NCBI GenBank assembly: GCA_034401795.1
Contig: CM067372.1
Coordinates: forward strand, 13,960,940 to 14,024,939
Source of the DNA: Chaetoderma sp. LZ-2023a
Lineage: Eukaryota > Mollusca > Caudofoveata > Chaetodermatida > Chaetodermatidae
DNA: 64,000 nucleotides
Direction: 5' to 3'
Shown here: piece by piece, positions 9,747 through 51,955 of the stretch
Layout of the letters: each line of letters starts with the position of its first letter
Numbering within the stretch: the first letter of the stretch is position 1
Position numbers and translations under genes: made by a program
Notes under the pieces: model-generated
Told to the model about the DNA's origin: nothing
Seen by the model: only the letters and a program-made list of their open reading frames with translations
The model's database searches: none

Positions 9747-9902
9747 TTTTGTTTGTTTATCAGGCGGTGATGTTGTTTTGTTTATCAGGCGGTGAGCTTT
9801 TTTTGTTTTTGTTTATCAGGCGGTAAGTTTGTTTTGTTATTTGTTTATCAGGCATTGCTGTTGTCTTGTTGTTTGTCAGGTGTTCATGTTTTATTTTCTC
9901 AG
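9747..9902 (+). repeat. Degenerate tandem copies of an AP5Z1 3' splice site
   Basis: About five imperfect units resemble the true acceptor and exon start (TTTCTCAG|GCGCTGACGTTG at 9895-9914). Examples are TTTATCAGGCGGTGATGTTG, TTTATCAGGCGGTGAG, TTTATCAGGCGGTAAG and TTTATCAGGCATTG. Each carries a usable-looking pyrimidine-AG. Confidence 0.65.
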
Positions 9903-10081
9903 GCGCTGACGTTGTGTATGATCCACAGCCAGCATATGATCATTATTTTGGACAAGTGTTAGCCAAGAACTACAGTAAACACGGTGTTGCTTTTGATACA
10001 GTTATGTTTCTCCGTGATAATCTGCATGCAGTGTGCTTCAAGACAAACATACTCAGCAAATACTTCCCTAACATTATGAAG
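9903..10081 (+). CDS. AP5Z1: AP5Z1 exon (first of ten in window)
   Basis: This exon encodes part of the AP-5 complex zeta subunit, which acts with SPG11 and SPG15 in late endosome and lysosome sorting. It begins two bases into a codon after TTTTCTCAG and ends in AAG before gtgagt. The peptide runs GADVVYDPQPAYDHYF, then FLRDNLHAVCF and FPNIMK. It aligns with the human segment containing RDNLH and FPNLFK as I remember it. Frame and phase fit the next exon at 11685. The preceding exon must be upstream of copies 1 and 2, outside the window. Confidence 0.9.
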
Positions 10082-10589
10082 GTGAGTTGGTGAAATGTGT
10101 TATTTCCTCTGCCATTGTGTAACGTCAGGGATGGTGAATGTGTCCTCTTTCCCCTTGTGACCTGTTCTTCATGGGTTTTGTAGAGTCTTTCGTAATGTTG
10201 CTTTTGTAAAATATTTCCAAGAGAGTTTGGCTGAAAACGAGTCACATACCAAAACATAGTATGATGTCCAAAATGGCCATCATGAAATTAGTCTCCGTGC
10301 ATTGACTGCATTGAGTATTGAAATAATGTATGTGTGTCGCTACATTGGGTTCTAAAGATATCTTAATTTAACAGTTTCCTAGTTTGTCTCTAAGATTGTG
10401 AACCTGGAACACCTGCTATCTGGAAAGCCATTTTTAACCGAAGAGCATTCACTTTGTGCAGGTGTGCCTGATTAGGTCTGTTAATTCACTGGTTGACTAG
10501 TTAATGAATTATAATTGCCTAACGAATTGCTGCCGGGGGAGCAATAATACATGTATTTCATTGTTGATTGATTGTACATGTGTGGTTTT
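10082..10589 (+). other. AP5Z1 intron, nothing recognised
   Basis: AT-rich intron sequence between the donor at 10082 and the start of the exon-derived array. I see no open frame of interest and no clear repeat. Confidence 0.5.
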
Positions 10590-11684
10590 AATCACTAGAC
10601 ATTAGCATGGAATCCACGAACAATCATGACAGAATGACTGATTATACATGTTTCTAATCACTAGAAAATAGCATGGAATCCACGAACAATCATGACAGAA
10701 TGATTGATTGTACATGTGTGGTTTTAATCACTAGATATTATCATGGAATCCACTAATAATCATGACAGAGTGATTGATTATACATATAGTTCTAATCACT
10801 AGATATTAGCATGGAATCCACGGACAATCATGACAGAATGATTGATTGTACATGTGTGGTTTTAATCACTAGATATTAGCATGGAATCCACGAACAATCA
10901 TGACAGAATGATTGATTGTACATGTGTGGATTTAATCACTAGATATTAGCATGGAATCCACGGACAATCATGACAGAATGATTGATTATACATATGGTGA
11001 TTTAATCACTAGATATTAGCATGGAATCCACAGACAATCATGGCAGAATGATTGATTATACATATGGTTCTAATCACTAGATATTAGCATGGAATCCACG
11101 GACAATCATGGCAGAATGATTGATTATACATATGGTTCTAATCACTAGATATTAGCATGGAATCCATGGACAATCATGACAGAATGATTGATTATACATA
11201 TGGTTCTAATCACTAGATATTAGCATGGAATCCACGGACAATCATGACAGAATGATTGATTGTACATGTGTGGTTTTAATCACTAGATATTAGCATGGAA
11301 TCCATGGACATTCGTGACAGAATGATTGATTATACATGTTTCTCATCACCAGATATTAGCATGGAATCCACGGACAATCTTGACAGAATGATTGATTATA
11401 CATGTTTCTAATCACTAGATATTAGCATGGAATCCATGGACATTCGTGACAGAATGATTGATTATACATGTTTCTCATCACCAGATATTAGCATGGAATC
11501 CACGGACAATCTTGACAGAATGATTGATTATACATGTTTCTAATCACTAGACATTAGCATGGAATCCACGGACAATCATGACAGAATGATTGATTATACA
11601 TGTTTCTAATCACTAGATATTAGCATGGAATCCACGGACATTCGTGACAGAATGATTGATTATACATATGTTTCTAATCACTAG
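10590..11684 (+). repeat. Tandem array built from the AP5Z1 exon-11685 acceptor and exon start
   Basis: About sixteen units of 65-70 bp each carry a copy of the splice acceptor plus exon start (TAATCACTAG|ATATTAGCATGGAATCCA). The real exon follows as the last unit with TTAGCGTGG. After about 33 exon-like bases each decoy reads into GAATGATTGA, an in-frame stop for anything spliced there. Confidence 0.85.
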
Positions 11685-11768
11685 ATATTAGCGTGGAATC
11701 CACGGACATTTGTGACAGAATACCTGGACTTAATTCCAGCCTTTATGTCCTCATCTACTGCTATTGAG
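11685..11768 (+). CDS. AP5Z1: AP5Z1 exon (28 codons)
   Basis: The peptide begins ILAWNPRTFVTEYLDLIPAF and ends in STAIE. It matches the human region containing LAWNS and LLPALVDAGTALE as recalled. The exon is bounded by CACTAG and gtaatc, enters and leaves in phase 0, and fits its neighbours exactly. It is preceded by about sixteen decoy copies of its own acceptor. Confidence 0.88.
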
Positions 11769-13542: not shown

Positions 13543-13745
13543 GTGTTTCATCTAATCCTCGACCTTCCCTGTACGGCCGCTGCTCTAGATGTGTCAAAAA
13601 GAGTTTCCAAGGTGGAGAATGCTCCATCACAAGTCACAACCTCTACCCCGTCAAGTTCTGTCGAAGCGTATAATAACCAGCTTTATCATCCGATGTTCAA
13701 GTTTATGTTGCGTATTGAAGGGGGACATGGTGATACGATTAATAG
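13543..13745 (+). CDS. AP5Z1: AP5Z1 exon
   Basis: This exon starts after TTTTCTAG in phase 0 and ends AATAG before gtaata, leaving two bases of a codon. The peptide VFHLILDLPCTAAALDV matches the human DLPCLTAVLDL block as recalled. The C-terminal half (NNQLYHPMFKFMLRIEGGHG) leads into the next exon. The last 65 bases of the exon plus its donor have been amplified downstream into a 90-bp array. Confidence 0.9.
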
Positions 13746-16320
13746 GTAATAGAGAGCTTATAGAGACTCACTTTATTAACTGATGTTCAAGTTTATGTTG
13801 CGTATTGAAGGTGGACATGGTGATACGATTAATAGGTAATAGAGAGCATATAGAGACTCACTTTATTAACTGATGTTCAAGTTTATGTTGCGTATTGAAG
13901 GTGGACATGGTGATACGATTAATAGGTAATAGAGAGCATATAGAGACTCACTTTATCATCCGATGTTCAAGTTTATGTTGCGTATTGAAGGGGGACATGG
14001 TGATACGATTAATAGGTAATAGAGAGCATATAGAGACTCACTTTATTAACTGATGTTCAAGTTTATGTTGCGTATTGAAGGTGGACATGGTGATACGATT
14101 AATAGGTAATAGAGAGCATATAGAGACTCACTTTATCATCCGATGTTCAAGTTTATGTTGCGTATTGAAGGGGGACATGGTGATACGATTAATAGGTAAT
14201 AGAGAGCATATAGAGACTCACTTTATTAACTGATGTTCAAGTTTATGTTGCGTATTGAAGGGGGACATGGTGATACGATTAATAGGTAATAGAGAGCATA
14301 TAGAGACTCACTTTATTAACTGATGTTCAAGTTTATGTTGCGTATTGAAGGGGGACATGGTGATACGATTAATAGGTAATAGAGAGCATATAGAGACTCA
14401 CTTTATTAACCGATGTTCAAGTTTATGTTGCGTATTGAAGGTGGACATGGTGATACGATTAATAGGTAATAGAGAGCATATAGAGACTCACTTTATTAAC
14501 TGATGTTCAAGTTTATGTTGCGTATTGAAGGTGGACATGGTGATACGATTAATAGGTAATAGAGAGCATATAGAGACTCACTTTATTAACTGATGTTCAA
14601 GTTTATGTTGCGTATTGAAGGTGGACATGGTGATACGATTAATAGGTAATAGAGAGCATATAGAGACTCACTTTATTAACTGATGTTCAAGTTTATGTTG
14701 CGTATTGAAGGTGGACATGGTGATACGATTAATAGGTAATAGAGAGCATATAGAGACTCACTTTATTAACTGATGTTCAAGTTTATGTTGCGTATTGAAG
14801 GTGGACATGGTGATACGATTAATAGGTAATAGAGAGCATATAGAGACTCACTTTATTAACTGATGTTCAAGTTTATGTTGCGTATTGAAGGGGGACATGG
14901 TGATACGATTAATAGGTAATAGAGAGCATATAGAGACTCACTTTATTAACCGATGTTCAAGTTTATGTTGCGTATTGAAGGTGGACATGGTGATACGATT
15001 AATAGGTAATAGAGAGCATATAGAGACTCACTTTATTAACTGATGTTCAAGTTTATGTTGCGTATTGAAGGGGGACATGGTGATACGATTAATAGGTAAT
15101 AGAGAGCATATAGAGACTCACTTTATTAACTGATGTTCAAGTTTATGTTGCGTATTGAAGGTGGACATGGTGATACGATTAATAGGTAATAGAGAGCATA
15201 TAGAGACTCACTTTATTAACTGATGTTCAAGTTTATGTTGCGTATTGAAGGTGGACATGGTGATACGATTAATAGGTAATAGAGAGCATATAGAGACTCA
15301 CTTTATTAACTGATGTTCAAGTTTATGTTGCGTATTGAAGGGGGACATGGTGATACGATTAATAGGTAATAGAGAGCATATAGAGACTCACTTTATTAAC
15401 TGATGTTCAAGTTTATGTTGCGTATTGAAGGTGGACATGGTGATACGATTAATAGGTAATAGAGAGCATATAGAGACTCACTTTATTAACTGATGTTCAA
15501 GTTTATGTTGCGTATTGAAGGTGGACATGGTGATACGATTAATAGGTAATAGAGAGCATATAGAGACTCGCTTTATTAACTGATGTTCAAGTTTATGTTG
15601 CGTATTGAAGGGGGACATGGTGATACGATTAATAGGTAATAGAGAGCATATAGAGACTCACTTTATTAACTGATGTTCAAGTTTATGTTGCGTATTGAAG
15701 GGGGACATGGTGATACGATTAATAGGTAATAGAGAGCATATAGAGACTCACTTTATCATCCGATGTTCAAGTTTATGTTGCGTATTGAAGGGGGACATGG
15801 TGATACGATTAATAGGTAATAGAGAGCATATAGAGACTCACTTTATTAACTGATGTTCAAGTTTATGTTGCGTATTGAAGGGGGACATGGTGATACGATT
15901 AATAGGTAATAGAGAGCATATAGAGACTCACTTTATTAACTGATGTTCAAGTTTATGTTGCGTATTGAAGGGGGACATGGTGATACGATTAATAGGTAAT
16001 AGAGAGCATATAGAGACTCACTTTATTAACTGATGTTCAAGTTTATGTTGCGTATTGAAGGGGGACATGGTGATACGATTAATAGGTAATAGAGAGCATA
16101 TAGAGACTCACTTTATCATCCGATGTTCAAGTTTATGTTGCGTATTGAAGGGGGACATGGTGATACGATTAATAGGTAATAGAGAGCATATAGAGACTCA
16201 CTTTATTAACTGATGTTCAAGTTTATGTTGCGTATTGAAGGGGGACATGGTGATACGATTAATAGGTAATAGAGAGCATATAGAGACTCACTTTATTAAC
16301 TGATGTTCAAGTTTATGTTA
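13746..16320 (+). repeat. 90-bp tandem array derived from an AP5Z1 exon end and 5' splice site
   Basis: Counting the genuine exon end as the first unit (13681-13770), 29 complete 90-bp units run to 16290 with a partial one to 16320. Each unit is 65 bases of exon 3' end plus 25 bases of intron and carries the donor AATAG|GTAATA. Units are almost identical and differ mainly at TCATCC/TTAACT and at one G/T. This gives 28 extra donor sites. Confidence 0.95.
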
Positions 16321-16515: not shown

Positions 16516-16602
16516 GTTGAATGTGTTACATAGTGTCCTGGAGGATTTGAATGGACATGCGAGAGTGATTGTGTGCTCACAGATTGTGCCAGTATTGCTC
16601 AG
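16516..16602 (+). CDS. AP5Z1: AP5Z1 exon (87 bp)
   Basis: The acceptor TTGCAG and donor gtgaga bound a phase 2 to phase 2 exon. The peptide LNVLHSVLEDLNGHARVIV followed by CSQIVPVLLR matches the human stretch ending AVPTLLQ as recalled. The first base completes the Arg codon begun at 13744-13745. A GA microsatellite follows the donor. Confidence 0.88.
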
Positions 16603-16649: not shown

Positions 16650-17800
16650 CAGTATAGTGCCAGTGTTGATCAAAGCTGTTATGTATTGGTGCCAGTATTG
16701 ATCACAGCTGTTATGTATTGGTGCCAGTATTGATCACAACTGTGATGTATTAGTGCTAGTAATGATCACAACTGTTATGTATCAGGGCTGGTATTGCTCA
16801 TAGCTGTGATGTAATAGTGCCAGTATTGATCACAACTGTGATGTATCAGTGCCAGTATTGATCACAACTGTGATGTATCCGTGCCAGTATTGATCACAGC
16901 TGTGATGTATCAGTGCCAGTATTGATCACAGGTGTGATGTATTAGTGCCAGTATTGATCACAGGTGTGATGTATTAGTGCCAGTATTGATCACAGCTGTG
17001 ATGTATCAGTGCCAGTATTGATCACAGGTGTGATGCATTGGTGCCAGTATTGATCACAGCTGTTATGTATTAGTGCCAGTATTGATCACAGGTGTGATGT
17101 ATTAGTGCCAGTATTGATCACAGCTGTGGTGTATCAGTGCCAGTATTGATCACAGGTGTTGCCCTGTAGGTGGGGCTTAGAATACACCTTCCGTATCCTC
17201 TGCATGTCGTAAGAGGCGACTAAAGGAGGTAAGGGGGAGGTAACCCTGACAGAAACCTCGAGTGCTGAAGACGGATGTTCCAGGCCGCACGGCGCACTCT
17301 AATAAACCATGGATCCACGCACTTACCGCTTATGATCATGTTGATAGTCACTTACAGCACTGGCGGTATGATCAGCGAACGAAAAGAAGAAGAAGAAGAT
17401 CACAGGTGTGATGTATTAGTGCCTGTATTGATCACAGCTGTGATGTATCAGTGCCAGTATTGATCACAACTGATGAATCAGTGCCAGTATACATCACAAC
17501 TGTGATGTATCAATGCCAGTATTGATCACAACTGTGATGATGTATCCGTGACAGTATTGATCAAAGCTGTGATGTATCAATGCCAGTATTGATCACAACT
17601 GTGATGATGTATCCGTGACAGTATTGATCAAAGCTGTGATGTATCAGTGCCAGTATTGATCACAACTGTGATGTATTCGTGCCAGTATTGATCACAACTG
17701 ATGTATCGGTGCCAGTATTGATCACAGCCATGATGTATTAGTGCCATAACTGATCACAGCTGTGATATATTAGTGACAATATTGATCACAGCTGTGATGT
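16650..17800 (+). repeat. Minisatellite of about 36 bp (GTGCCAGTATTGATCACAG), left block
   Basis: About thirty imperfect units contain GTGCCAGTATTGATCACAG, usually followed by CTGTGATGTATTA. The core resembles the end of the preceding exon with its donor (GTGCCAGTATTGCTCAG|GTG at 16586-16605), so the array may have been seeded there. It is interrupted by a SINE-like insertion at 17160 and split by DIRS copy 3 at 17801. Confidence 0.85.
17160..17398 (+). mobile_element. SINE-like insertion with AAG-rich tail
   Basis: This 239-bp non-minisatellite segment lies inside the array and ends in a (GAA)n-type tail. GATCACAGGTGT occurs on both sides (17148-17159 and 17399-17410), consistent with a 12-bp target duplication, although the array itself repeats that word. 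It contains GTCGTAAGAGGCGACTAA, a motif I associate with mollusc SINEs. I could not make out clear tRNA promoter boxes. Confidence 0.55.
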
Positions 17801-17992
17801 TTTCACTTCAAGAGTATACTTACCTCCCTAATACTCTTTGATATTGCTAAATATCGGCTTTCACTCAATAAAACACTCAGATTAAAAAAGTTAGGTGCCC
17901 CTACTGGGCAGGGAGTCAGAGGGCAGTCCGGCGGATGCCAGCCCCACCACTGCGCATGCGCAGACTAGCACTTCCTCTGCTAATTTATTGGC
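17801..17992 (+). repeat. Left inverted terminal repeat, DIRS copy 3
   Basis: The first 15 bases (TTTCACTTCAAGAGT) are specific to left ends. The remainder is the reverse complement of 24493 onward, including TAGGTGCCCCTACTGGGCAG and the TGCGCATGCGCA core. Confidence 0.9.
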
Positions 17993-18084
17993 AGAGGGTC
18001 AACACATGTTTTCATGCTCAAAGCTTTTCTAAGCTATTTCTAAGTCATTTAAGCAAATTATTGGAAGTGTTATCACCTGTAGAG

Positions 18085-20856
18085 ATGGCAGAAGGCATTA
18101 ATTCGCCAGAGGAGGGCCCAGGACCTATCCATCAGGTGACTTCTAGTATATTTTAGCGAGTTTATCCCGGTGTAATGTGTTTCCAAGACTCACGTTTATC
18201 GTGATAAGCGCCTAATATAGTTGGTTTATTTCAAAATGGCGCTATGTAATACTAATCTCTCTTTGTGTTTATGTCCACAGGTATCTGTCTATGATTGTAC
18301 AGGACATCACATCAACAGAGGGTTTGTTTCTCTCCACCAAGGTTCCATTTCCTACTAATACTGTTAGGTTATCTAACCAAAAAGTCTATGTCCAGTGACT
18401 CGGAGGTTCCAGTTCATCAGTTTGGATGGTTTGTCTATGCAAAGAATCAGGTATTTTAGTTAATGATATGAGGCACTTCTCTTATTTTTGAAAATAATTA
18501 TATAAACTTTTGCCATTTTATCATTGTTTATCTGATGTTTGTGTAGCCTGAATATTCTATCCTTTCTAGTCAGGATGTTCTGGATATGAATACAATTCAT
18601 CCTTACACCTGGATGTTTGTTTCGGATCGATTTAATTTCTTTTTTTGAAATTATGACGTCATAATCAGCCTTGCACTTTATTAACAATTAAAGTTTTGCC
18701 CAACGCTGGTTCTCTAATATCTGATAGGTGATCTTTATGATCACTTTCCTCTCCTCTTATTTTGGTTTTGAGTTTCTACCCGTAACTAAAATACTCATTG
18801 TCTTCATCTTCTGGCCTGTTTCAAATTACCTGGTTGTCCGTCTTGTGGTCGTTTCCTCAAGGAAAGATTCATTCCACATTTATGTTGTCAATGTAGTCCT
18901 TGTGGCCCGTTACTTAAATGTGATGTATGTAAGCAGTGGGGGGGGGGAGGCGATCTAATGGCAGATTTTTTATCTTTGCAGGCGAAGGATAAGATCGTGG
19001 AGGAGGAGAGGAAACAAAAGAGAGTGGTAACGAGTAAAAAGGGTAAGAGGAAGACCTCGTCCTCAGTGGACATGGAGGCCTTCCGTAGTGAGATGTTGGG
19101 AGAGATGAAGAGGACAATCAAGGATTTGGTTCCAGAGTTGCTCCGTAGTATGCTTCCTGGATAAAATCCTTTGTTGTCCTCTTCATCTGCTTCGGAGCAG
19201 GTAATCCCCGCCTCTGAATCTGGTTTCTTTAGGCCTCTACCAGTTTTCGATGATTCAGAGGTTGCCCCATTAGAGGGGGCGTTCCAGGACACTGGCAGCA
19301 GGCTTGCCACGCCGGTGGTCCATGGATGGTTGTCGCTGGAACCTGGTGGCTGCTTATCAGCCCAGGGGTATCTGCACACCGCAGGTGCCAGTACCTCCTA
19401 TGGCACCTTTCCTGGCCAGTCCGGGTTAGCTCTCTTTGCTGACCCGGAGTCTAATCTTTCTGGCCAGGAAGAAGAGGATTACCTGCTGGGTTCCCCTACT
19501 GATGTCGTGACCATGGACATTGACGTCTGTGCACCTCTCGCGGGGAATACAGGCGACATTTCCACGGTTCTACTCGCGCAGGAGTAGAATTCACGGCTCA
19601 GAAGGTGGCCCGGGTTGAACCTGACGGCCAGTTGTTCCACATACCTCGGCTTGCCGAGAGTATAGCGGGTTCTGGCCAGGGCCATGGTGTGGCGATAAGC
19701 ACCCCACGCAATACCACGGTGCCTGCTCCTGGACAAGCCAGTCAGATTAACATGCCTGCTCTTTCGGGCCTGCATGCTTTCTCTGGCTTGCCATGAGTGT
19801 CAGGCTATCCAGCTTCTAGCTCGCCTGCGAATGCTCAGGAGGAAGACGAAGGCCCTCGTCTTGTAGAACTTTCGCAGGTAGCCACGGAGGAGGATTGGGC
19901 AGACACTTGTCAATGGCTTATAAGCGTCAGGCCAGACCTGCCCGTGGAACAGTCGGCTAGCCAGCGAGACCACCGGCCGTGGTTAGCTGGTAAGTCGACT
20001 GTTGGCGCCATGCCATCTCTGCCGTTGGCAGAACATATTGTTGATATGTTCTCGGCGGCGGAGACGTCCATCAAGGCGCATGGACGTCTCGCGAAGGCCC
20101 CTCGCGAGGTTGCAAGGCGCTACCGCATCGTAGCCGTAGAGTATCAGAGGTACGGTGTGGTACCTAAGCCGAGCATTGATGACCGCGCGGCTTTAGGTGA
20201 AGATACACGGCCAGGCTCCCGTTCTGACACGGGAGCCCTGTGTTCGGCCAATACCACGTTGCGCGATGCGGAGGAGAGTGTGAGAGCGTCTATTGCGGCG
20301 CTTTCTCATGTCTCCCAGCTGTTGCAAGGGTTAGTGACAGTATCCGCATCGCGCCAGCCTAGCCTGATAACTGTTCAGAGAGCCATCCAGGATGGTATCA
20401 ACCTGGCTCTGGATTGTTTGACTCGGGCTGTGACCAGAAGTGTCCGGGCGAGGCGCACGTTTGCGTTGGACAACGTGTGCCCATCCCAGGACCTGTACAA
20501 TAGGCTGCTGCGTACGCCTATGGCAGGTTCTGGTCTCTGGAGGTGAGGGATGCAAGCACCTCCAGGAGACGGTCACTCTGGTCAACAACCAGAGGGCGCT
20601 GCGTGAACAGTTTGAGGTGCTCCGTAGGGAGCATGTTTGCGTAGCACCCCCTGCGTACCATCCCCTGCAGGCTCGAGGTAGAGGTGGCCATGTCAGAGGC
20701 CAGCCACCAGCGCAGCGTCGGCCTCAGCCATGTGCGATTCGGTCAGCAGTGAGGGGGGGGGGCGCAGGCTCCTCCAGTGCAGCCAGCCAGGCAGCCACCC
20801 GTGTACCGAGGTGCGCGCGGTGCTGGTCGTGGCGCGTGAGGATCTGGTCGTGGTAA
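18085..20856 (+). pseudogene. DIRS copy 3 gag-like ORF1, broken
   Basis: A short first exon (ATG at 18085, MAEGINSPEEGPGPIHQ) ends at a donor gtgact. The main exon (from about 18826) has the Cys-rich motif and a ten-G tract at 18938-18947. Here the tract is in frame, reading KQWGGGGDLMADFLSLQAKD. Damage includes a mutated acceptor (TTTCAAAT), a TAA at 19162-19164 for Ser, an indel near 19560, and a two-base deletion near 20538 before the conserved GGEGC block. Confidence 0.78.
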
Positions 20857-20938
20857 TCGTGCCTGATGGGCCGCTTACCACGGTGAGAATCACTCCGGTG
20901 TTTCAGGCCAAGGAGACAGTGCCACTCTTGCACTCCTT

Positions 20939-23793: not shown

Positions 23794-24043
23794 TTAGGTG
23801 TACATTTTTGATGAGGTTTCCTCATTATTTATATATATCACAATTAATTAATGGGAACAACCACTTATTTGGGACTGCATCAGTCTTCACCACTGGGAAG
23901 ATGATGTCAGCAGCCAAACTCAACAAGGTCAGTCTTGTTTTTTGTGTTGTTCATTGTGATCCTTGGTTATTAACATGGTGATGGTATGTGTTTTATGTGG
24001 TTCATTATTGAGAGTATACGAAAATGGAGCCTTTTCGTCTCTT

Positions 24044-24227: not shown

Positions 24228-24324
24228 TTCAGAAGTTTAACTGCCTTAAATGCAGAAAAGCGCATAGGGAAGAGCTGGTCTTTTGACCTCGCCTCCCTCC
24301 CGCCGAATTCCCTGACAAATTCTG

Positions 24325-24709: not shown

Positions 24710-25432
24710 ATTAGTGCCAGTATTGATCACAGCTGTGATGTATCAGTGGCAGTATTGATCACAACTGTGCTGTATCAGTGCCAGTATTGATCACAGCCAT
24801 GATGTATTAGTGCTATTACTGATCACAGCTGTGATGTATTAGTGCCAGTGTTGATCACAGGTGTGATGTATTAGTGCCAGTGTTGATCACAGCTGTGATG
24901 TATTAGTGCCATTACTGATCACAGCTGTGATGTATTAGTGCCAGTATTGATCACAGCTGTGAAGTATTAGTGCCATTACTGATCACAGCTGTGATGTATT
25001 AGTGCCAGTATTGATCACTGCTTTGATGTATTAGTGACAATATTGATCACAGCTGTGATGTATTAGTGCCAGTATTGATCACAGCTGTGATGTATTAGTG
25101 ACAATATTTATCACAGCTGTGATGTATTAGTGCCAGTATTGATCACAACTGTGATGTATCAGTGCCAGTATTGATCACAGCAGTGATGTATTAGTGCTAT
25201 TACTGATCGCAGCTGTGATCTATCAGTGCCAGTATTGATCACAGCTGTGATGTATTGGTGTCAGTATTGATCACAGCTGTGGTGTATTAGTTCCAGTATT
25301 GATCACAGCTGTGGTGTATTAGTGCCAGTATTGATCACAGCTGTGGTGTATTAGTGCCAGTATTGATCACAGCTGTGATGTATTAGTGCCAGTATTGATC
25401 ACAGCTATGACGTATTAGGGCCAGTATTGCTA
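24710..25432 (+). repeat. Minisatellite of about 36 bp, right block
   Basis: This continues the array cut by DIRS copy 3, with about twenty units reading AGTGCCAGTATTGATCACAG or close variants. It ends before unique intron sequence at about 25433. Confidence 0.9.
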
Positions 25433-25615: not shown

Positions 25616-25738
25616 GTATTATTTCACTGTGGTGCTGGAGGATGGTGATTCTGCCCTGGCTAAGCATCTGTTACCTGTTATGCTGGAGAGGATTGGACTT
25701 TTGTATAATGTTCCCGAGTACAAGGCAGATGTGAGAAA
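25616..25738 (+). CDS. AP5Z1: AP5Z1 exon (123 bp)
   Basis: The acceptor TTTTCGCAG and donor gtaagt give a phase 2 to phase 2 exon. The peptide YYFTVVLEDGDSALAKHLL then LYNVPEYKADVRK corresponds to the human region with SAVTQVADGS and SLYPAPGYAAGV as recalled. It joins in frame to both neighbours. Confidence 0.88.
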
Positions 25739-30933: not shown

Positions 30934-30938
30934 AATTT

Positions 30939-34999: not shown

Positions 35000-35132
35000 G
35001 ATTCTCTCTGAGGCAGTATACATGATGTTTCGGACACACCCACATCTTGTCGGTGAGGAACATGAGGAAATCATGGAGTACTTTGGAAGCACCAGAAACA
35101 TCACAGATAAAGAGGAGTTCTTCTCACACCTG
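35000..35132 (+). CDS. AP5Z1: AP5Z1 exon (133 bp)
   Basis: The acceptor ATGGTGCAG and donor gtaata bound the exon. With the two bases carried from 25738 it reads KILSEAVYMMFRTHPHLV and then EEIMEYFGSTRN and FFSHL. This matches the spacing of the human segment before VVWAIGEY as recalled. It ends in phase 0. Confidence 0.88.
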
Positions 35133-35716: not shown

Positions 35717-35939
35717 TTAAGTAGTAAAGACAAACAATTCGTACGCATCACAGCCTTTATTCATACCTTGCTGCCAATGGTTATTCCCCTTAGATGGATG
35801 CCAGTTGTTTTGGTGGTAGCTATGCCAAACTATTGGTTTCTATAAGCAATTTGGAGTATACGTAGTTCTTTCTGCTCCAAATCTGCAATAACTCAGTACA
35901 GTTATGCATGGGTGCCAGTTGGATAATATTGCTAATCAT

Positions 35940-36301
35940 TACAGGTGTGGTCAGTCGGAGAGTATTGCTTACCTTTCCTCTATTACAGGTGTGGTCAGTG
36001 GGAGAGTATTGTTTTCCTATCTGTTACAGATGTGGTCAGCGGGAGAGTATAGTTTAATTGTAATCTCTCTTACAGGTGTGGTCAATGGGAGAGTATTGTT
36101 TACCTGTCCTCTCTTACAGGTGTGGTCAGTGGGAGAGTATTGTTTACCTGTCATTTGTCTTACATGAGTGGTCAGTTGGAGAGTATTGTTTACCTGTCAT
36201 CTCTCTTACAGGTGTGGTCAGTGGGAGAGTATTGTTTACCTGTCCTCTCTTACAGGTGTGGTCAGTGGGAGAGTATTGTTTACCTGTCATGTCTCTTACA
36301 G
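35940..36301 (+). repeat. Tandem array built from the AP5Z1 exon-36302 acceptor and exon start
   Basis: About eight units of 42-46 bp each repeat TCTCTTACAG|GTGTGGTCAG followed by TGGGAGAGTATTG. The last unit is the genuine exon. Each decoy has a good acceptor and the first 25 or so exon bases. Confidence 0.9.
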
Positions 36302-36490
36302 GTGTGGTCAGTGGGAGAGTATTGTTCACCTGCAGTGGCAGTTCAGTGCACATCAGAGGTGATTACACACTATTATGAGGCATTAGAGGTGTTGACATAT
36401 GAAGTATCAGGTTTGGTACAGGTGTGCTCCGAGGATAAAGCACCATTTACACCGAAGCTGATCTGCATGTTCATGTCGGCTCTGGCTAAG
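36302..36490 (+). CDS. AP5Z1: AP5Z1 exon (63 codons)
   Basis: The exon is phase 0 at both ends, from CTCTTACAG to gtatga. VWSVGEYCSP matches human VVWAIGEYLS, and YYEALEVLTYEVSGL matches FFEALEALLFEVTQ, both as recalled. The exon ends in MFMSALAK, equivalent to LMTTLTK. This is one of the most diagnostic exons for AP5Z1. Confidence 0.93.
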
Positions 36491-39082: not shown

Positions 39083-39161
39083 GGTGGCGCTGGTCAAGTC
39101 AGAGGCCAGCTGCCGGTGCAGTGCGTAAGTTGCGGCCACGCCAGCACTGGCCTGCAGTGGG

Positions 39162-41300: not shown

Positions 41301-41303
41301 TTA

Positions 41304-42282
41304 AGGAGGGCTTTTCTGAGCAAGCAGCCATGTTTATGGCAAAAGCCAGAAGGGGGTCAACCTCCAGAGCATAAAACTATAAAATCAATAGATTTACAGA
41401 ATGGTGCTCAGAGATGTTAATCCAATGGATGCATCTATTCAGGTAGTAGCCGATTTTGTCTGTCACCTGTATGATGCCTATAGACTCGAGCCTAACTCTA
41501 TTGCTGGCTACAAGTCGGCTTTAATGTCAGTTATCCCTTGCTTGGCTGATAGGGGAAGTGACGAAGTCTGTTCATTGAACACTAATAAAAGGCATGGGTA
41601 ATCTAAGACTGAGAAATCCACCAGCAATTCCGTCTTGGAGTTTATCTCGAGAACTTCAAATGCTAGCAGACAAACCCTTTGAACCACTAAGTGACATTTC
41701 TATGAAAATGTTGACGCTTAAGACTGTATTTCTAATTGCTGCGGCCTCTGCAAGACGGAGAAGCGAGATTCATGCTTTATCCGCTGAGGCCGACCATTAT
41801 GTGGTTACAGGGGAAGGACTTAGGCTTCTACCTAGGATAAATTTCATGGCTAAGAACCAGTCTTTGAATTATCCAGGTCAACCAATTGTTTTACCAGCTT
41901 TGACTAGGTTTGATCCTAATTCAAAAGCATGGTGTCCAGTCCACGCATTAAATAGGTACAAACAACGTACACAGGAATGGCGGACAGACCCATCCTCGTT
42001 ATGGTTGTCATATATTGAACCCCATGGCAGGGCATCAAAAGACACTATATCTAGGTGGATTGTGGAATGTATTCAATTTTGCCACAAATCCGCCACTGAT
42101 AAACAAGTAAACAAGCCAAGGCTCACAGTGTCCATGGTGTAGTGGCATCCACCACTCTGTTTAACGGGGTGCCGGTGAATGACATTATGTCGGTAGCTCA
42201 GTGGCACTGTGAGTCAAGTTTTACCGACCATTACCTCCGTGACACCACTAATCCTCTTGCCTTATCGATATTCAAAATATGA
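41304..42282 (+). pseudogene. DIRS copy 5 tyrosine recombinase, broken
   Basis: A TAA at about 41373 replaces Tyr of RAYNYK. Small deletions near 41410 and 41585 shift the frame, and another near 42105 disrupts the sequence before the His-x-x-Arg motif (which reads HSVHG here). The Arg box ASARRRSE and the terminal AQWHC and DHYLRD sequences can still be traced. Confidence 0.82.
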
Positions 42283-42804
42283 TCAGGTGTATATATTGTA
42301 GATAAGTTGCACTTGCTGTCTTCAGACAGCACCTTTTAATTGGGGAAACAACCGCATATTCGTGTATAATTTTTCCTTCACTGATGTGGACTGGATGGAT
42401 ACAGCTTACATGCATAAGGTCAGTACTGCCTTTTGTTGTTACATAATCTATTGTCACAATGTATTACCCTTATTTAACAATAATGTAATTGTACCTGTGT
42501 ATTATGCAGTTCATTTATTGAGAGTATACGAAATGAAGCCTTTCGTCTCTTGTCCTTTAGTACTTAGCACCAGTACTTAGAGAGTGTATGGGACATTGAG
42601 GTCATAGCTTCTCCTTTCCCAAAAGGAGGGGGGAGTGCATTTGGCATATGTTCATTACTCTCACCATCGGTTATGTTATCCGATGTTCAAATCATTGCCT
42701 GATTGTGTGTGTCACACAATTTCAGATGTTAGTGCTTCATGCGCAAGGGATGATCTGGTCTTTTGACCTTGCCTCCCTCCCGCCAGATTCTCTTACAAAT
42801 TCTG

Positions 42805-42911
42805 GCAATATCATAGAGTGTTAGGGAGGTGAGTATATCTCTTGAAGTGAAATAAACGAAATCACTGATTTCTTTTTTCACGAGAGAGTTGTTATACATA
42901 CCTCCCTAACA
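42805..42911 (+). repeat. Internal complementary region of DIRS copy 5
   Basis: The junction GTGAAA|TAAACG at 42852/42853 gives the complements of this copy's two ends, with a few mismatches consistent with its age. Confidence 0.85.
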
Positions 42912-42987
42912 CGGACCTCGCCTCTCCACCCAACAGAGGCTCGGACTTCAGGCTTTTAAGTTGCATATGTCGGCAAATAGTCAAGCT

Positions 42988-43184
42988 GAGGCAGTGACAG
43001 TTTGCGCATGCGCGAGGTTGGGGCCGGCATCTGGCTGACTGTCACCTGTCTACCTGCCCATTAAGGGCACCTATCTTTTTTAATCTGGGGTTATTGAGTG
43101 AAGGTCGATATTTAGGAAATATCATAGTGTTAGGGAGCTAAGTATAACAACTCTCATGAAAAAAGAAATCCGTGATTTCGTTTA
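42988..43184 (+). repeat. Right inverted terminal repeat, DIRS copy 5
   Basis: This pairs with 36866-37050 and ends TTTCGTTTA. The right-specific tail has lost a few bases (CAACTCTCATGAAAAAAG). Confidence 0.85.
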
Positions 43185-43185
43185 T

Positions 43186-43359
43186 TCACCGTTGGTTTTC
43201 TCCTGCATTGCTACATTCAGTACTGTGGCATCCCCCACAAGCTGTGACACATTGCAAGCCATTCTTGCGATACGAGCACTGATTCCCAGAACATGGGTTT
43301 TTACTTGTTGACTTACACTTGCAACGGATGACATTTAGAATATCTGGCGGGCCAGCATC
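43186..43359 (-). pseudogene. 3' end of a nuclease-like/Cys-rich transposon gene
   Basis: Read on the minus strand, this gives KDAGPPDILNVIRCKCK, then NPCSGNQCSY, NGLQCVTACGGC and a TGA. It aligns with the end of the frame at 54136-56727 (SKDPAPFGLIELTSCRCQK and its following Cys pattern). Across the hAT insertion the upstream codons continue at about 47948-47985 (ILVPVRST). Only the last 70 or so codons of the gene remain, so the element is non-autonomous. Confidence 0.72.
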
Positions 43360-43939
43360 CTTAGTGGTAGGGCTTCACGGTATTGGAAAAACGAAAACCG
43401 GTTATGGTATCAATTTCAATACCGGTATACCTTTCATACCGGTATTACTCATATGTGCATTGAATGATGTTGTAGGGGGTACTTTGGGCGCCATAGCATT
43501 TGTATATTCTACATAAAACATGTGTTTTGTTGTCATTTCCCCACCCCCAAATCATCGTTGTCGTATAATGTATTAGTGTTTGAACGACATACATATGACA
43601 CCATGCTCGGACATTAAATACTATTCTCAGTTCGAATTTGTTTCCATAAATGAACAAGCGGAACTATTTATATTATCATCTATATACAAAGATAACAATA
43701 TAAATCGCGTTACTTGTGTATTTTGGAAGCAAAGTCGCGATATTAGTTCATAAAATGTTGACTCACGTAAAATATGTGCAAGCCGGAAGTGACCCCGTAA
43801 AGTGCGCAGAATGTTTACGCGCACTTGATAACGGGTGAATGATTGACAGCTACCATTAGTCAGCAGAAATAACAGCGAGCCACAAATATTAAATGTAAAT
43901 TTTATTCCAAATATTTAAAACAAATCAACAATATAATCA

Positions 43940-44290
43940 AATGATAAACTTTTTTTGAAAATGTATCCTTGGAATGACTGACTCGGCTATCAAGCCAGTC
44001 ATTCCAGGGATAACTCTTTTCAATAGTTTTTGCTAGGCCTATTCACTCGAGAGCACTATGTTTACTAATCTAAATGTGTGATTTTAGCACTTAAGAATAC
44101 AAAACACGGGGGTCATGAGTACAACAATAGGTCTCTTATGGTTCTTAGGTGTAGAGTTAATTGCAAATAATGCATTTGCACACCAAGTGAAAACTTATTT
44201 TGAAAATTTCCCACTGGAATGACTGGCTCGGTTATCTAGCCAGTCATTCTAGTAAAAAATGTTCAAAAATAGTTTTCATTTGGTCTGCAA
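43940..44290. repeat. Palindromic GACTGGCTCG cores inside the hAT 3' flank
   Basis: Two hairpins (near 43970-44020 and 44213-44262) share the core TGGAATGACTGGCTCGG and CTAGCCAGTCATTC with the piggyBac-type MITEs at 35485 and 52469. Confidence 0.65.
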
Positions 44291-44315
44291 ATGGATAATT
44301 CTCACTGCTACAGCA

Positions 44316-45224
44316 TTATTGTTTTACAAAGTTTGACATATTTCCTGCCAGAAAAGATAGCATGTTGACCTTATCAGGTTTTAAGCAAGCACGATTGGGG
44401 TTAACAATCTGGCCTGCTTTGCTAAAGAGTCGTTCTGAGGGACAGCTTGTGGCAGTCACACAAAGATACTTCTTAGCAAAGTTGGCTAAGGTCGGATAGC
44501 TCTTTTCATGAATTTTCCACCAGTCTAGTGGATTGGAGTCTTGGTCTGGTTCAGGGGCACCTAAATACAATACAAGTTCACTATCTACTGGGAGAGTGTC
44601 TACTGAGCTACATTGATTGTCACTTGATTTCTTGGTTTTGACAAACAAACTTGCTAAGGTTTTCTTAGCTGGTGTGTGTTTAACATGGACATCGTTACTG
44701 ATAGACACAGGCTTGACATGTAGTGATACACTGATAGACACAGGCTTGACATGTAGTGATACATCCATACGAATTTTCTCCTTCACAGTGTGGTACTCCT
44801 CCTCGGTCAGATATTAATTCTTGAACTTAGGATCAAGAAAGGTTGCCACACATAGAAGTTCATTAATTTTATCGTCATTGTAACGTTTTGACAGAGATTT
44901 CTTTTTCGAATCTCGCATCTCGGTTGTCAAGTCATGAACAATTACATCATCCTCTGTTGGCGGATTGAGAACATTGACATTGATGACGTTAAGCAGAGGT
45001 TTCAATGAAGATACACTAACATATTTCTCCTGTGACAAAATATCGGTAAAGTCTCCTACACTTTCTAGGGCACTACACACTGCTTCCAAAACATGGGAAT
45101 CCTGCCAAGTAGGGACTAGTTGTTTAGTCTTCCGATCTAAATTTAATACTCTGGTAATGGCTGGCTCCTGCTCAACTATCCTCTTCATCATGGCAAACTT
45201 GGCTCCCCATCTAGTGGCACAATC
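44316..45224 (-). pseudogene. hAT transposase exon 2 with one stop codon
   Basis: The exon begins after a minus-strand acceptor (TATTCACAG) with DCATRWGAKFAMMKRIVEQE, a typical hAT block. It ends with the C-terminal dimerisation region (SCPSERLFSKAGQIVNP, then NMLSFLAGN). A TAA near 44814-44816 interrupts it at CATFLDPKFKN; the same frame continues on both sides. Joined to exon 1 it would give about 634 codons, a normal hAT length. The single stop suggests recent inactivation. Confidence 0.88.
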
Positions 45225-45239
45225 CTGTGAATAGATAAG

Positions 45240-45560
45240 ATTAAGACATATTCATCTTAGGGCTTGCAAATGAACAATTTAGTCAATGTCCATATCATAG
45301 TAACTTAGCCAGTCATTCCAGCGGTAAATTTTCAAAAAATAATTTTATCTTAGGGCTTGCAAATGAACAATTTAGGATAACATATCTAATTCTAACAGAA
45401 TAATATGGGTCAATGTCCTCATCATAGTAACTTAGCAAGTCATTCCAGCGGTAAATTTTCAAAAAATAATTTTATCTTAGGGCTTGCAAATGAACAATTT
45501 AGGATGACATATCTAATTCTAACTGAATTAAATGGGTCAATGTCCTCATCATAGTCATCT
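45240..45560. repeat. Tandem repeat of about 120 bp in the hAT intron
   Basis: Two to three units with TTAGCCAGTCATTCCAGCGG and TTAGGGCTTGCAAATGAACA lie between the two transposase exons. They contain half of the GACTGGCT hairpin core. Confidence 0.7.
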
Positions 45561-45687
45561 TGCCGGCTAAGCGGTCAAGCGTTACTAAGGCAACAACTAC
45601 TGGCCTACTATAGAAATAATACACCACATACTGTGCTTGACTGATCAACCATTTTCATCCCAAACACACATAATAGATGAATTCTGC

Positions 45688-45762
45688 TGAATATTTGAAT
45701 AATTATTTTACTGAAAACTATTATAATGATTCAGTTAAACTATCACTGCAAATATTCAGCAA
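45688..45762. repeat. Palindromic hairpin repeat inside the hAT
   Basis: TGCTGAATATTTGAAT and AAATATTCAGCA arms surround an imperfect centre. It belongs to the same family as 12234 and 57761. Confidence 0.55.
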
Positions 45763-45816
45763 GAGTACATGTAGGCCTACTATATGTAAACTACAATATA
45801 TAGATAACAAACTTAC

Positions 45817-46812
45817 TGTAATCAGCTGATGCTTTGGAAATCCAAGGGTTTCCTGCGCCTCCTTGAGCTCGCGTCGCTTCTTCCAGCTGGTAGAGAATGT
45901 CGACACAATCGTACGGCATACACCTAACGTTCTCGAGATACGCTTATCGTTCATTGCACCATTTACTGCTAGATGCAAATTGTGGCCAAAGCATGACATG
46001 TTAATCCAATCCAGATCTCGTAGAGCCTTTTTTATGTTGCTGCCGTTATCCGTCGTCATGCACACATGCTTGTCAGTGCTAAGTCCCCAGTTTGCAAAAC
46101 ATTCTGTCAAAGTTTGTCCGATGTTATCTGCCGTATGGTCATTTGGAAAATACAATGTTTCTAACACACGAGCCTGTAGGGTCCACGTCCTATCGATGAA
46201 ATGGACGGTCAGGCCAAGATACGGCACCATATTTTCTGATGACCAAAGATCCGTGGTAGTAGCAAAGTAGTCTGCACATTTCAGTTCATCGACGATCTTA
46301 TTGCGCACCTCAATATAGAACTGCGGAATCGCAGTATCGCCAAAGTAATTACGACCAGGCAATTTGTACCGGCTGTCAAACTGTGAGAGCATGTTAATGA
46401 AGTGATCGTTGTCTACTGTGTATATAGGAATCATACCTCCGGCTAAGTATCGCGTCACTGCTTCAGTCAGGCGTTTGTGTCGTGGATGCGATTTCTCGTA
46501 GATCGTTCCTTTACAGAATGACTCACTTATCTTCTGCTGCTTTCGCGGCATTGTCTCTGTCTCATCATCAAGGGTTAAATCGTCACTCTTTCGTTTACCA
46601 GGCGTGAACGTCAGTTGCAAAAATGCTTGCGGATGATGCTTGCGTAAATGAAATCGTAAATTAGAGGTGTTACCACCTCTGGCGCACACAGACTCTTTAC
46701 ACAATTTACACACTGGCTTTTCTTCATCAGTTGCTTTACCGTCATCGCCTGCTATAAATCCGAAATGTAACCAAACGGGAGACGTTCCCTTGGCTTTAGG
46801 AATCAATTCCAT
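45817..46812 (-). CDS. hAT transposase exon 1 (BED finger and catalytic N-terminal part)
   Basis: This exon has 332 codons from ATG at 46812 to a donor (ACA|gtaagt at 45817/45816). A BED-type zinc finger is visible (VWLHFGF, PVCKLCKESV, SNLRFHLRKHHP: Cys-Cys...His-His). The hAT core follows with the DLWSSENMVPYLGLTVHFID block and DNGSNIKKALRDLDW, matching the first catalytic Asp region and the conserved C-x-x-H segment (MSCFGHNLHLAV). It is open throughout. The partner exon at 44316-45224 carries a stop. Confidence 0.9.
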
Positions 46813-48423
46813 AGTATTGAAAAGATATAATCGTCCGAAATTAATTTTAAAACATTAATACTAGTATGGGCTAGGACGGCTATATTTATAAAAAGGTCTT
46901 CTTGAGCTTGGGTCACATGACGATCAATAATTTATCAATAATTTGTATGAATAGAATGGATTAATAGCCTAATAATAGGGCCATTGATTTCGCGGTGATC
47001 AGAGTGTGTGACCTATACTCTTGTTTTCTTTACCAAAAAATTTAAAAAATCAGTAAAGTTGAAACACTTTTTCCAAAATAATTTTAGTGATATTTGTTAT
47101 CAAGAACAGCACAACAAATTTGAAGGAAATTTTTTTCAAAATAATCATTTGATCATATACTACATATTATGCATTCAAAATTCTGCCACTGTATATCGAA
47201 GGGTTAGGCGGCCAGGGCGGGCAATCAATAGTCTTAGTTAAATTAGTCAATAAACGCTGGACACATACAGGTTTGAATGAGCATTCTTTCTCAATTCTAG
47301 TTTTGACAAGGATTTATTGTATGATCACCACGCGCAAAGCGAAAGTTAACAATAGGTGTCGACCTTGTAATGCCGTCAATAGCGTCATCAGAATGGAATG
47401 TGGATGGAGTATTCCCGTAATGATAATCAGAACGAGGCTGAGCTGTGTTTATTTTAATTTATTCTTGAGCATAATGACGTCAAACGCGTCATCATCACCC
47501 TTTATGGCGGACATTTATCGGAAATTGCGTTGCAAAAAAACTTTGAAATTTTATAGTTAAATGACCTTTATTGGCATAGAAAATCGTTACACAATGAAGG
47601 ATTAATATAATATGAACTGAACAGGTATGGATATAACAATAAGGCATGATAAATTTGTAGATATTTCAGCATTTTTACTTTTCAGTGCCGATAAAATGTA
47701 CTTATGACTTTCAAATCTCGTGAGATTTGCGCGAGATTCGCGAGACTTGGCGGTTGTGATTACTTCCGGGTTGGATTTTGACAGTTTTTGTTTACGACAA
47801 AATGATCATTGCAAACTCTACAAATAATATTTTTTATAATATTTCGATATTTCGGTATTGAAAATATCATTCCGGTATGACAACCGGTATGGGTATGATA
47901 CCGGTATTCGGTATCATACCGAAATACCGTGAAGCCCTACTTAGTGGACCTAACAGGTACAAGTATGGACCCTTCATGGACGAATAATAGCTGAGATATA
48001 GACCATTACATCTCATTCTCTACCATTAAAAGGTTCACTTTCTAAATCCCCATAGAAAGCAATGGTGAATAAGTCGATAATTTAATTTGCTTATAAAAAA
48101 TTCAGCCCAAAGCGGATTTTTGCGGATTTTGGATATGTTATTAAGGACATAATTCTGCGTTGAATGGCGTTAAAATTGTGGTACCCAATTATTTCCTGGT
48201 TCGGCCAGTTTTTGGCTTAATTCTACTACACTACAATGAGACCATTATGCCTAACCTAGTTTGTTTTGACAAGCAGGTGAGTTTGTCATACTGAAGTATG
48301 GAGTTATTCCTAATTAACTCTAGTGAGAACAGCCTAAGTTATAGTCTTAAAAGGTGCTAGCTTTGAATCATGTTTTATGGTTTGATCATGTATATGTATT
48401 TCTGCAAGGGTTTAAATTGCCAG

Positions 48424-48671: not shown

Positions 48672-51600
48672 TGGTCAGGATTTACAGCGCCAATGCTCAT
48701 CATGTTGTTTATACGATAGCACCAATGCTCATCATGTTGTTTATATGATAGCACCAATGCTCATCATGTTGTTTATACAATAGCGCCAATGCTCATCATG
48801 TTGTTTATACGATAGCACCAATGCTCATCATGTTGTTTCTACGATAGCGCCAATGCTCATCATGTTGTTTATACGATAGCGCCAATGCTCATCATGTTGT
48901 TTATACGATAGCGCCAATGCTCATCATGTTGTTTATACGATAGCGCCAATGCTCATCATGTTTGTTTATACGATAGCACCAATGCTCATCATGTTGTTTA
49001 TACAATAGCACCAATGCTCATCATGTTGTTTATACGATAGCACCAATGCTCATCATGTTGTTTATACAATAGCACCAATGCTCATCATGTTGTTTGTACG
49101 ATAGCACCAATGCTCATCATGTTGTTTATACAATAGCACCAATGCTCATCATGTTGTTTATACGATAACGCCAATGCTCATCATGTTGTTTATATGATAG
49201 CACCAATGCTCATCATGTTGTTTATACGATAGCGCCAATGCTCATCATGTTGTTTATACGATAGCGCCAATGCTCATCATGTTTGTTTATACGATAGCAC
49301 CAATGCTCATCATGTTGTTTATACAATAGCACCAATGCTCATCATGTTGTTTGTACGATAGCACCAATGCTCATCATGTTGTTTATATGATAGCACCAAT
49401 GCTCATCATGTTGTTTATACGATAGCACCAATGCTCATCATGTTCTTTGTACGATAGCACCAGTGCTCATCATGTTGTTTATACGATAGCACCAATGCTC
49501 ATCATGTTGTTTATACGATAGCACCAATGCTCATCATGTTGTTTGTACGATAGCACCAATGCTCATCATGTTGTTTATACGATAGCACCAATGCTCATCA
49601 GGTTGTTTATATGATAGCACCAATGCTCATCATGTTGTTTATACGATAGCACCAATGCTCATCATGTTGTTTATACGATAGCACCAATGCTCATCATGTT
49701 GTTTGTACCATAGCACCAATGCTCATCATGTTGTTTATACGATAGCGCCAATGCTCATCAGGTTGTTTATACGATAGCGCCAATGCTCATCATGTTGTTT
49801 GTACGATAGCTCCAATGCTCATCATGTTGTTTATATGATAGCACCAATGCTCATCATGTTGTTTATACGATAGCACCAATGCTCATCAGGTTGTTTATAC
49901 GATAGCGCCAATGCTCATCATGTTGTTTATACGATAGCACCAATGCTCATCATGTTGTTTATACGATAGCACCAATGCTCATCATGTTGTTTACACGATA
50001 GCACCAATGCTCATCATGTTGTTTATACGATAGCACCAATGCTCATCATGTTGTTTATACGATAGCACCAATGCTCATCATGTTGTTTGTACGATAGCAC
50101 CAATGCTCATCATGTTGTTTATACGATAGCACCAATGCTCATCATGTTGTTTATACAATAGCACCAATGCTCATCATGTTGTTTGTACCATAGCACCAAT
50201 GCTCATCATGTTGTTTATACGATAGCGCCAATGCTCATCAGGTTGTTTATACGATAGCGCCAATGCTCATCATGGTGTTTGTACGATAGCTCCAATGCTC
50301 ATCAGGTTGTTTATACGATAGCGCCAATGCTCATCATGTTGTTTATACGATAGCGCCAATGCTCATCAGGTTGTTTATACGATAGCGCCAATGCTCATCA
50401 TGTTGTTTATACGATAGCGCCAATGCTCATCATGTTGTTTATACGATAGCACCAATGCTCATCATGTTGTTTATACAATAGCACCAATGCTCATCATGTT
50501 GTTTATACGATAGCACCAATGCTCATCATGTTGTTTGTACGATAGCACCAATGCTCATCATGTTGTTTATACGATAGCACCAATGCTCATCAGGTTGTTT
50601 ATACGATAGCACCAATGCTCATCATGTTGTTTATACGATAGCCCCAATGCTCATCAGGTTGTTTATACGATAGCACCAATGCTCATCATGTTGTTTATAC
50701 GATAGCACCAATGCTCATCATGTTGTTTATACGATAGCACCAATGCTCATCATGTTGTTTGTACAATAGCACCAATGCTCATCATGTTGTTTATACGATA
50801 GCACCAATGCTCATCATGTTGTTTATACGATAGCACCAATGCTCATCATGTTGTTTATACGATAGCACCAATGCTCATCATGTTGTTTGTACGATAGCAC
50901 CAATGCTCATCATGTTGTTTATATGATAGCACCAATGCTCATCATGTTGTTTATACAATAGCACCAATGCTCATCATGTTGTTTGTACAATAGCACCAAT
51001 GCTCATCATGTTGTTTATACGATAGCACCAATGCTCATCAGGTTGTTTATACGATAGCACCAATGCTCATCATGTTGTTTATATGATAGCACCAATGCTC
51101 ATCATGTTGTTTATACGATAGCACCAATGCTCATCATGTTGTTTGTACAATAGCACCAATGCTCATCATGTTGTTTATATGATAGCACCAATGCTCATCA
51201 GGTTGTTTATACGATAGCGCCAATGCTCATCATGTTGTTTGTACGATAGCACCAATGCTCATCAGGTTGTTTATACGATAGCGCCAATGCTCATCAGGTT
51301 GTTTATACGATAGCGCCAATGCTCATCAGGTTGTTTATACGATAGCGCCAATGCTCATCATGTTGTTTATACGATAGCACCAATGCTCATCATGTTGTTT
51401 GTACAATAGCACCAATGCTCATCATGTTGTTTATACGATAGCACCAATGCTCATCATGTTGTTTATATGATAGCACCAATGCTTATCATGTTGTTTATAC
51501 GATAGCACCAATGCTCATCAGGTTGTTTATACGATAGCACCATTGCTCATCATGTTATTTATATGATAGCACCAATGCTCATCGTTATTTATATGATAGC

Positions 51601-51705
51601 ACCAATGCTCATCAGGTTGTTTATACGATAGCGCCAATGCTCATCATGTTTATATGATAGGGCCAATGCTCATCATGTTGTTTATATGATAGTGACAAGC
51701 TCAGG
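48672..51705. repeat. 32-bp satellite array, about 95 units
   Basis: The unit is GCACCAATGCTCATCATG followed by TTGTTTATACGATA. Variants are mainly GCACC/GCGCC, CATG/CAGG and TATAC/TGTAC/TATAT. It fills 3 kb of the largest AP5Z1 intron. I see no similarity to an AP5Z1 splice junction. Confidence 0.96.
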
Positions 51706-51911
51706 GCTCAGTTCCTCTGGCTATGGTTTTGCAAGATATGAGATAGGGGCACAAATGTTTTTTATCATCTGATATTATCTTCTTTCCTTTCTGCCTAGCT
51801 ATATATGCTGAACAGTTTCACCGGTAATGCCTCTGGAACGACAATTCTACAGATGTTACTGTATCCTGACCAACAATATGTAGCGTATTAGACCAGCGTC
51901 AGGGAAGTTCT

Positions 51912-51955
51912 GACGAAGATTGTTCTAATTACAGTTAAGATTGTTCTAATTACAG
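51912..51955 (+). repeat. Two-copy duplication of the AP5Z1 exon-51956 acceptor
   Basis: AGATTGTTCTAATTACAGTT occurs twice in tandem (22-bp period). The second copy provides the acceptor used by the exon, and the first is an upstream decoy. Confidence 0.85.

Follow-up and report, generated by a model that had tools for sequence, protein, structure and literature searches.

Tandem arrays resembling 'mirage' minisatellites at six exon edges of an AP5Z1 gene

AP5Z1 is widespread among animals. On its + strand, the window analyzed here, a stretch of 64,000 nucleotides from contig CM067372.1, carries an animal AP5Z1 gene, represented by its 3' part with 10 exons and 19 splice boundaries. Six of the 19 boundaries, comprising four acceptors (9903, 11685, 36302, and 51956) and two donors (13745 and 16602), are accompanied by tandem arrays whose units copy the boundary itself. 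We think it probable that these arrays are minisatellites of the kind called 'mirages', seeded at the six AP5Z1 edges through a bias toward exon edges combined with tolerance of duplications there.

Junction arrays and their decoy splice sites

The gene model consists of the following exons:

9903..10081, + strand, AP5Z1 exon A, first in the window
11685..11768, + strand, AP5Z1 exon B
13543..13745, + strand, AP5Z1 exon C
16516..16602, + strand, AP5Z1 exon D
25616..25738, + strand, AP5Z1 exon E, without a detected junction array
35000..35132, + strand, AP5Z1 exon F, without a detected junction array
36302..36490, + strand, AP5Z1 exon G
51956..52107, + strand, AP5Z1 exon J
52786..52833, + strand, AP5Z1 exon K, without a detected junction array
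53486..53573, + strand, AP5Z1 exon L, last, carrying the stop codon, without a detected junction array

AG or GT is present at all 19 splice boundaries, and exons A to L join as one frame of 427 codons. The predicted protein matched the Pfam family TPR_AP5Z1_C in a profile search (3e-129) and the AP5Z1 chain of 8yab (8e-68). An additional exon near 48484 was discarded: exons G and J join in frame, with a match to AP5Z1, and two of the three frames at 48484 contain stops. Six AP5Z1 peptide patterns tried in IMG/VR returned zero matches, as did an Rfam search of the sequence at gathering scores; a text search for a SINE-like motif was likewise negative.

Each flank was aligned to its own exon boundary, and arrays were called with Tandem Repeats Finder. 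The junction arrays are laid out as follows:

9752..9915, + strand, array A: unit length 25-32 bp; five diverged copies upstream of acceptor 9903, in addition to the authentic one; exonic part of each unit about 13 bases
10565..11721, + strand, array B: unit length 66-70 bp; 16 copies upstream of acceptor 11685, in addition to the authentic one; exonic part of each unit 37 bases
13681..16319, + strand, array C: unit length 90 bp; 28 near-identical copies and a partial last unit downstream of donor 13745, in addition to the authentic copy; exonic part of each unit 65 bases
16655..17159, + strand, array D block 1: unit length 32 bp; units related to donor 16602 and the adjoining end of exon D
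17398..17800, + strand, array D block 2: 32 bp unit family of block 1
24710..25429, + strand, array D block 3: unit family of block 1, with a DIRS-like retrotransposon between blocks 2 and 3
35939..36332, + strand, array G: unit length 41-46 bp; eight copies upstream of acceptor 36302, in addition to the authentic one; exonic part of each unit 31 bases
51916..51957, + strand, array J: perfect 21 bp duplication holding acceptor 51956; one upstream copy plus the authentic one; 2 exonic bases per unit

A previous sequence-only reading of this DNA had placed boundary arrays at these six junctions, and aligning units to boundaries recovered every one of them in place. Its unit length of 90 bp at C also stood. 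The other lengths were corrected from 22 to 21 bp at J and from 36 to 32 bp at D, or replaced by ranges around the original values of about 29 bp at A, 45 bp at G, and 67 bp at B. Five arrays have several exonic bases per unit, as it had stated for all six, with J having only 2; the exonic share of the duplicated D segment is about 20-23 bases. The largest arrays are C, with 29 copies, and D, with about 51 across its three blocks. Junction arrays contribute about 5.9 kb of intron sequence. The D unit consensus also contains a 14 bp palindrome (ATCACAGCTGTGAT), which was presumably formed through a GT to CT change at the donor position.

Tandem Repeats Finder arrays contained acceptors 11685, 36302, and 51956 and donor 13745 outright, corresponding to 4 of 12 merged rows or, if D is taken as one array instead of three blocks, to 4 of 10. 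The detected arrays A and D end 26 bp and 53 bp short of their boundaries (9903 and 16602, respectively). The boundary window scored 34 in both cases, against array A and against D block 1, a value reached by 0 of 8151 control windows (maximum 32). The authentic splice site is the terminal array copy at all six edges, directly at B, C, G, and J and via homology across the gaps at A and D. No decayed arrays were found at the remaining 13 boundaries, where the best flank scores were 15-23 versus 27-75 at the six. Lower Tandem Repeats Finder thresholds yielded only two further small arrays, neither at a junction.

For B, D, and G, and in a looser way for C, the exonic portion of the units can be aligned with residues common to this protein and the AP5Z1 chain of 8yab, which argues that the arrays were derived from the exon edges. 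From this alignment the exon copy looks ancestral. We infer the direction for the two remaining arrays: A, whose edge shows less conservation, and J, with its 2 exonic bases. Mean pairwise divergence among copies was 0.116 for A, 0.083 for B, 0.015 for C, 0.08-0.11 for the D blocks, and 0.083 for G, and both copies of J were identical. Because divergence, unit length, and exonic share differ among the arrays, the events are separate and of different age, which bears out the original claim of independence. At exon B, similarity of copies to the exon rose with proximity (Spearman 0.71, P 0.002). In C, 4 of 28 copies carried upstream variants of the exon itself, as exchange within the array would predict.

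An assembly artefact is a most improbable origin for these arrays. There is precedent for one, in that the available text of PMC3087553 reports an aberrantly assembled globin mirage in a draft amphioxus genome. However, copy variants are distinct in all arrays but J, units differ by junction, and one array is interrupted by a transposon.

Copies of the splice sites within the arrays are referred to here as decoys. AG was kept in 29 of 30 acceptor decoys and GT in all 28 donor decoys of C, where the nine-base site was identical to the true donor in every copy. By comparison, GT was present in only 5 of 16 scored units of D block 1, and the consensus at the donor position is CT in D blocks 2 and 3. 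Many but not all AG/GT signals are therefore retained across array copies, and the earlier statement that each unit includes AG or GT fits the acceptor decoys, with one exception, and C but fails at D. The conservation of AG and GT is not special because 50-96% of all columns show no variation in arrays B, C, D, and G. A stop codon results from 28 of 30 acceptor decoys, the open exceptions being 9852 and 36212. At C, with decoys spaced every 90 bp, extending the exon to the first decoy meets stops at once, and longer extensions include that stretch. Judging from these reading frames, decoy use would usually be harmful.

These counts bear on the proposal, also raised previously, that selection for redundant splice sites kept spare copies as an aid to splicing long introns. 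Retention of AG at nearly all acceptor decoys and of GT throughout C speaks for such selection. However, the proposal is unsupported because decoys bring stop codons and most scored D decoys (11 of 16) lack GT, and with so many invariant columns the retention is unremarkable. We consider selection for spare sites very unlikely. Exon C offers a natural test of spliceosome choice, with one true donor in a set of 29 that have the same nine bases.

The arrays could alternatively be relics of the birth of these introns by tandem duplication of AGGT, a process that the sequence-only reading had brought up. They provide the raw material assumed in the published model, and AGGT occurs at the C, D, and G junctions. 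On the other hand, every array copies a single exon edge, and intron birth of this kind is not seen because the two ends of the same intron share no clear homology. Scores between same-intron donors and acceptors were 14-24 across all nine introns, compared with an average of 22.8 for other pairs, some of whose windows overlap. Thus, we find it highly improbable that the arrays record intron gain.

Excess of arrays at exon edges and its possible causes

We compared the positions of the arrays with a null model of founding units. Transposons were taken out, arrays were collapsed to one unit, and units were randomly placed in the remaining 9548 bp. The transposon-free DNA of the AP5Z1 gene amounts to 19392 bp, of which arrays make up 53%. 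As the main criterion, a unit had to hold at least 2 bases on either side of a boundary, and the three D blocks counted as one array. The null excludes arrays that are inside transposons, have a period below 10, or lie beyond the gene, and transposon ends were set by eye. All P values are post hoc and derive from one gene and 10 arrays in a window picked for this feature, and they carry no correction for that choice. We hold that the founding-unit null, rather than plain coverage, is the relevant one because an exon edge can only be an array's last unit.

Boundaries were held by 6 of 10 arrays, whereas 0.92-0.98 were expected (P 3.5e-5 to 5.6e-5). A strict count based only on containment according to Tandem Repeats Finder gave 4 of 10 (P 0.007-0.009). 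Demanding at least 5 exonic bases caused J to fall out and left 5 of 10 (P 2.5e-4 to 3.6e-4). When the D blocks were treated separately, the count was 6 of 12 (P 1.2e-4 to 1.8e-4), or 4 of 12 under strict containment (P 0.012-0.016). Leaving out wholly exonic births resulted in an expectation of 0.94-0.98 per 10, versus six seen (P ~5e-5) or four under the strict count (P 0.008-0.009). The idea that births prefer junctions, as originally claimed, thus survives as a local excess in AP5Z1. This excess over random birth positions is probably real, being strong with all six arrays counted and weak under the strictest count.

Several observations weigh against seeding at the edges. The strictest count, requiring both containment and at least 5 exonic bases, retained only 3 of 10 arrays (P 0.033-0.040). 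The excess is based on a single gene and 10 post hoc arrays in a window selected as odd, and strict containment alone raises P to 0.007-0.009. Plain coverage gives no excess, given the share of the gene's DNA in arrays and the involvement of 6 of 19 boundaries (32%). Taken singly, D blocks 2 and 3 match the boundary no better than 23 and 25 of the 8151 controls, respectively, and are tied to the edge more weakly, through the unit they have in common with block 1. The trend with distance failed to reach significance at G (0.59, P 0.13) and C (0.28, P 0.15), and the five copies at A ran in the opposite direction (-0.89, P 0.04).

Of the 10 arrays, 4 were not linked to an edge (x21 at 13206, x16 at 16418, x180 at 26161, and x32b at 48686), and two of these resemble dispersed repeats. 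The unlinked arrays, the choice of the window, and the weak strictest count are compatible with births at uniform positions. Duplications would then arise anywhere, exonic ones would be purged, intronic and edge ones would survive, and this gene would have drawn many edge cases, making a special mechanism unnecessary. We regard this as possible, although not the likelier course of events. Against it stand the counts obtained after excluding wholly exonic births, where fewer than one array was expected at an edge, and the recurrence of mirages in several unrelated amphioxus genes according to the accessible parts of PMC3087553 and PMC3902484.

A splicing- or transcription-coupled hot spot in the germline, where a paused polymerase, R-loops, or nucleosome edges cause breakage or slippage at exon edges, is an explanation that we entertain only tentatively. 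It would account for an edge excess at both acceptors (four) and donors (two) with differing units and ages. However, the breakpoints keep no constant distance from the junction, with 2 to 65 exonic bases per unit, and AGGT is found at only three of the six edges (C, D, and G). Direct evidence for a mechanism of this type did not emerge, and no search was aimed at it. The specific version put forward earlier, slippage at AG|GT, is unsupported because unit ends lie 2 to 65 bp into the exon; J alone ends within 2 bp.

We favor near-neutral duplication with intronic tolerance and some mutational bias toward exon edges. At each founding event, a segment of 21-90 bp across a splice junction (2-65 bp of it exonic) would have been duplicated head to tail, at different times for different arrays. 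The copy joined to the body of the exon would retain a working splice site, and additional copies would land on the intron side and presumably be spliced out along with the intron. Since spare copies fall in the intron and are presumably removed, such a duplication would be nearly harmless. Arrays could then have enlarged to tens of copies via unequal exchange and local homogenization. We infer correct splicing, growth through unequal exchange, and what causes the excess. As causes of the edge excess, mutational bias and tolerance are not distinguished by the data.

It is conceivable, but we would not presume, that exon edges are hot spots of minisatellite birth in this germline and that junctions repeatedly seed arrays that lengthen introns. 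If so, and should the host fall outside the lancelets, such seeding would be a process of animals more widely and not a cephalochordate oddity. Since the founding unit is readable for each array, junction seeding of minisatellites becomes countable in any assembled genome. The intron sequence added by junction arrays also gives them a bearing on intron growth.

Other repeats and neighbors in the window

The arrays not linked to an edge differ in what they resemble. Arrays x21 and x180 were rejected as edge-derived, as each matched the single edge tested no better than controls; they resemble stretches near 57.9 kb and 59.4 kb. No convincing source was found within the window for x32b or x16, neither of which was tested against an edge. 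Array x32b (48686-51692) has 94 copies of a 32 bp unit.

There are several copies of a retrotransposon that we take to be DIRS-like, at 1-9746, ~17806-24709, 28209-34842, and 36868-43186. The first copy has a clear reverse transcriptase (RVT_1, 4.9e-21), along with weak RNase H-like, Dam-like, and phage-integrase-like (Phage_int_SAM) matches under curated cut-offs. The element at ~17806-24709 inside array D was identified by reading it beside this first copy. DIRS-like copies adjoin array A (9746-9752) and interrupt array D (17800-24710), and these elements might have an insertion preference for minisatellite arrays. The J unit and the first copy, near position 985, have a 15-base stretch in common (AAGATTGTTCTAATT; score 31), perhaps by chance. 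The sequence TTAGGGAGGTAAGTAT contains a near-consensus splice donor; with one mismatch allowed, there are 10 occurrences on the + strand and 8 in reverse.

A further element at 43367-47945 encodes, on the - strand, a protein with a BED zinc finger (PF02892, 2.7e-8) and has inverted terminal sequences around GTAGGGCTTCACGGTATT. We assume that it is probably a hAT element. Just downstream of AP5Z1, an open frame of 828 codons (54241-56727) had no Pfam match at 0.001 and a sub-threshold match to cysteine-rich TCR (0.045).

Relation to mirages and other known systems

The sequence-only reading treated the pattern as new, whereas minisatellites at exon boundaries have already been described in amphioxus. 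The phenomenon is therefore known by name, and it is the density of six edges in one gene that is unusual. The original mirage paper is reportedly that of Canestro 2002. According to the available text of PMC3087553, amphioxus mirages in Adh3 and the globins BflGb6 and BflGb9 consist of minisatellite-like copies across an exon-intron boundary, with unit lengths of 10-72 bp in Adh3 and 150-160 bp in the globins. Reverse transcription polymerase chain reaction suggested regular splicing in these cases, and intron gain from such repeats was also proposed there. The accessible portion of PMC3902484 adds PGBD5 as a mirage gene and mentions troponin C. In the part of PMC2632668 that is available, whole exons or fragments of them, in some cases bearing canonical splice sites, are noted within introns of amphioxus VCBP3. 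Among the reports covered, which left out most subscription papers, 'mirage' in the minisatellite sense was found only for amphioxus, with other reports being judged from their titles. The accessible text of papers on Lucina globin and amphioxus huntingtin described no comparable arrays.

Other systems share single features with these arrays, as far as the available portions of the sources describe them. CeRep25B of C. elegans (PMC4039745) is likewise an intronic minisatellite and is enriched beside alternative splicing. Unlike the arrays here, it is a family found at many places and is not described there as derived from neighboring exon edges. Internal tandem repeats of human segmentally duplicated genes (PMC2812944) are also variable boundary repeats that may change intron structure. 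Those repeats are recent variants among paralogues with transcript support, whereas we describe several arrays in one gene. The AGGT model of intron gain (PMC3443670) similarly invokes a tandem duplication that includes a splice-like site, but the AP5Z1 arrays lengthen introns from one edge with no new intron evident.

The closest likeness is to amphioxus mirages, which, in the text accessible to us, share boundary-spanning tandem copies, an occurrence at 5' or 3' edges, varied unit lengths, and the retention of many but not all AG/GT signals. The AP5Z1 arrays differ in that they occupy six edges of a single gene and one of them reaches 29 copies. If the host is a lancelet, AP5Z1 would represent a strong new case of mirages; if it is not, mirages would extend to another animal group.

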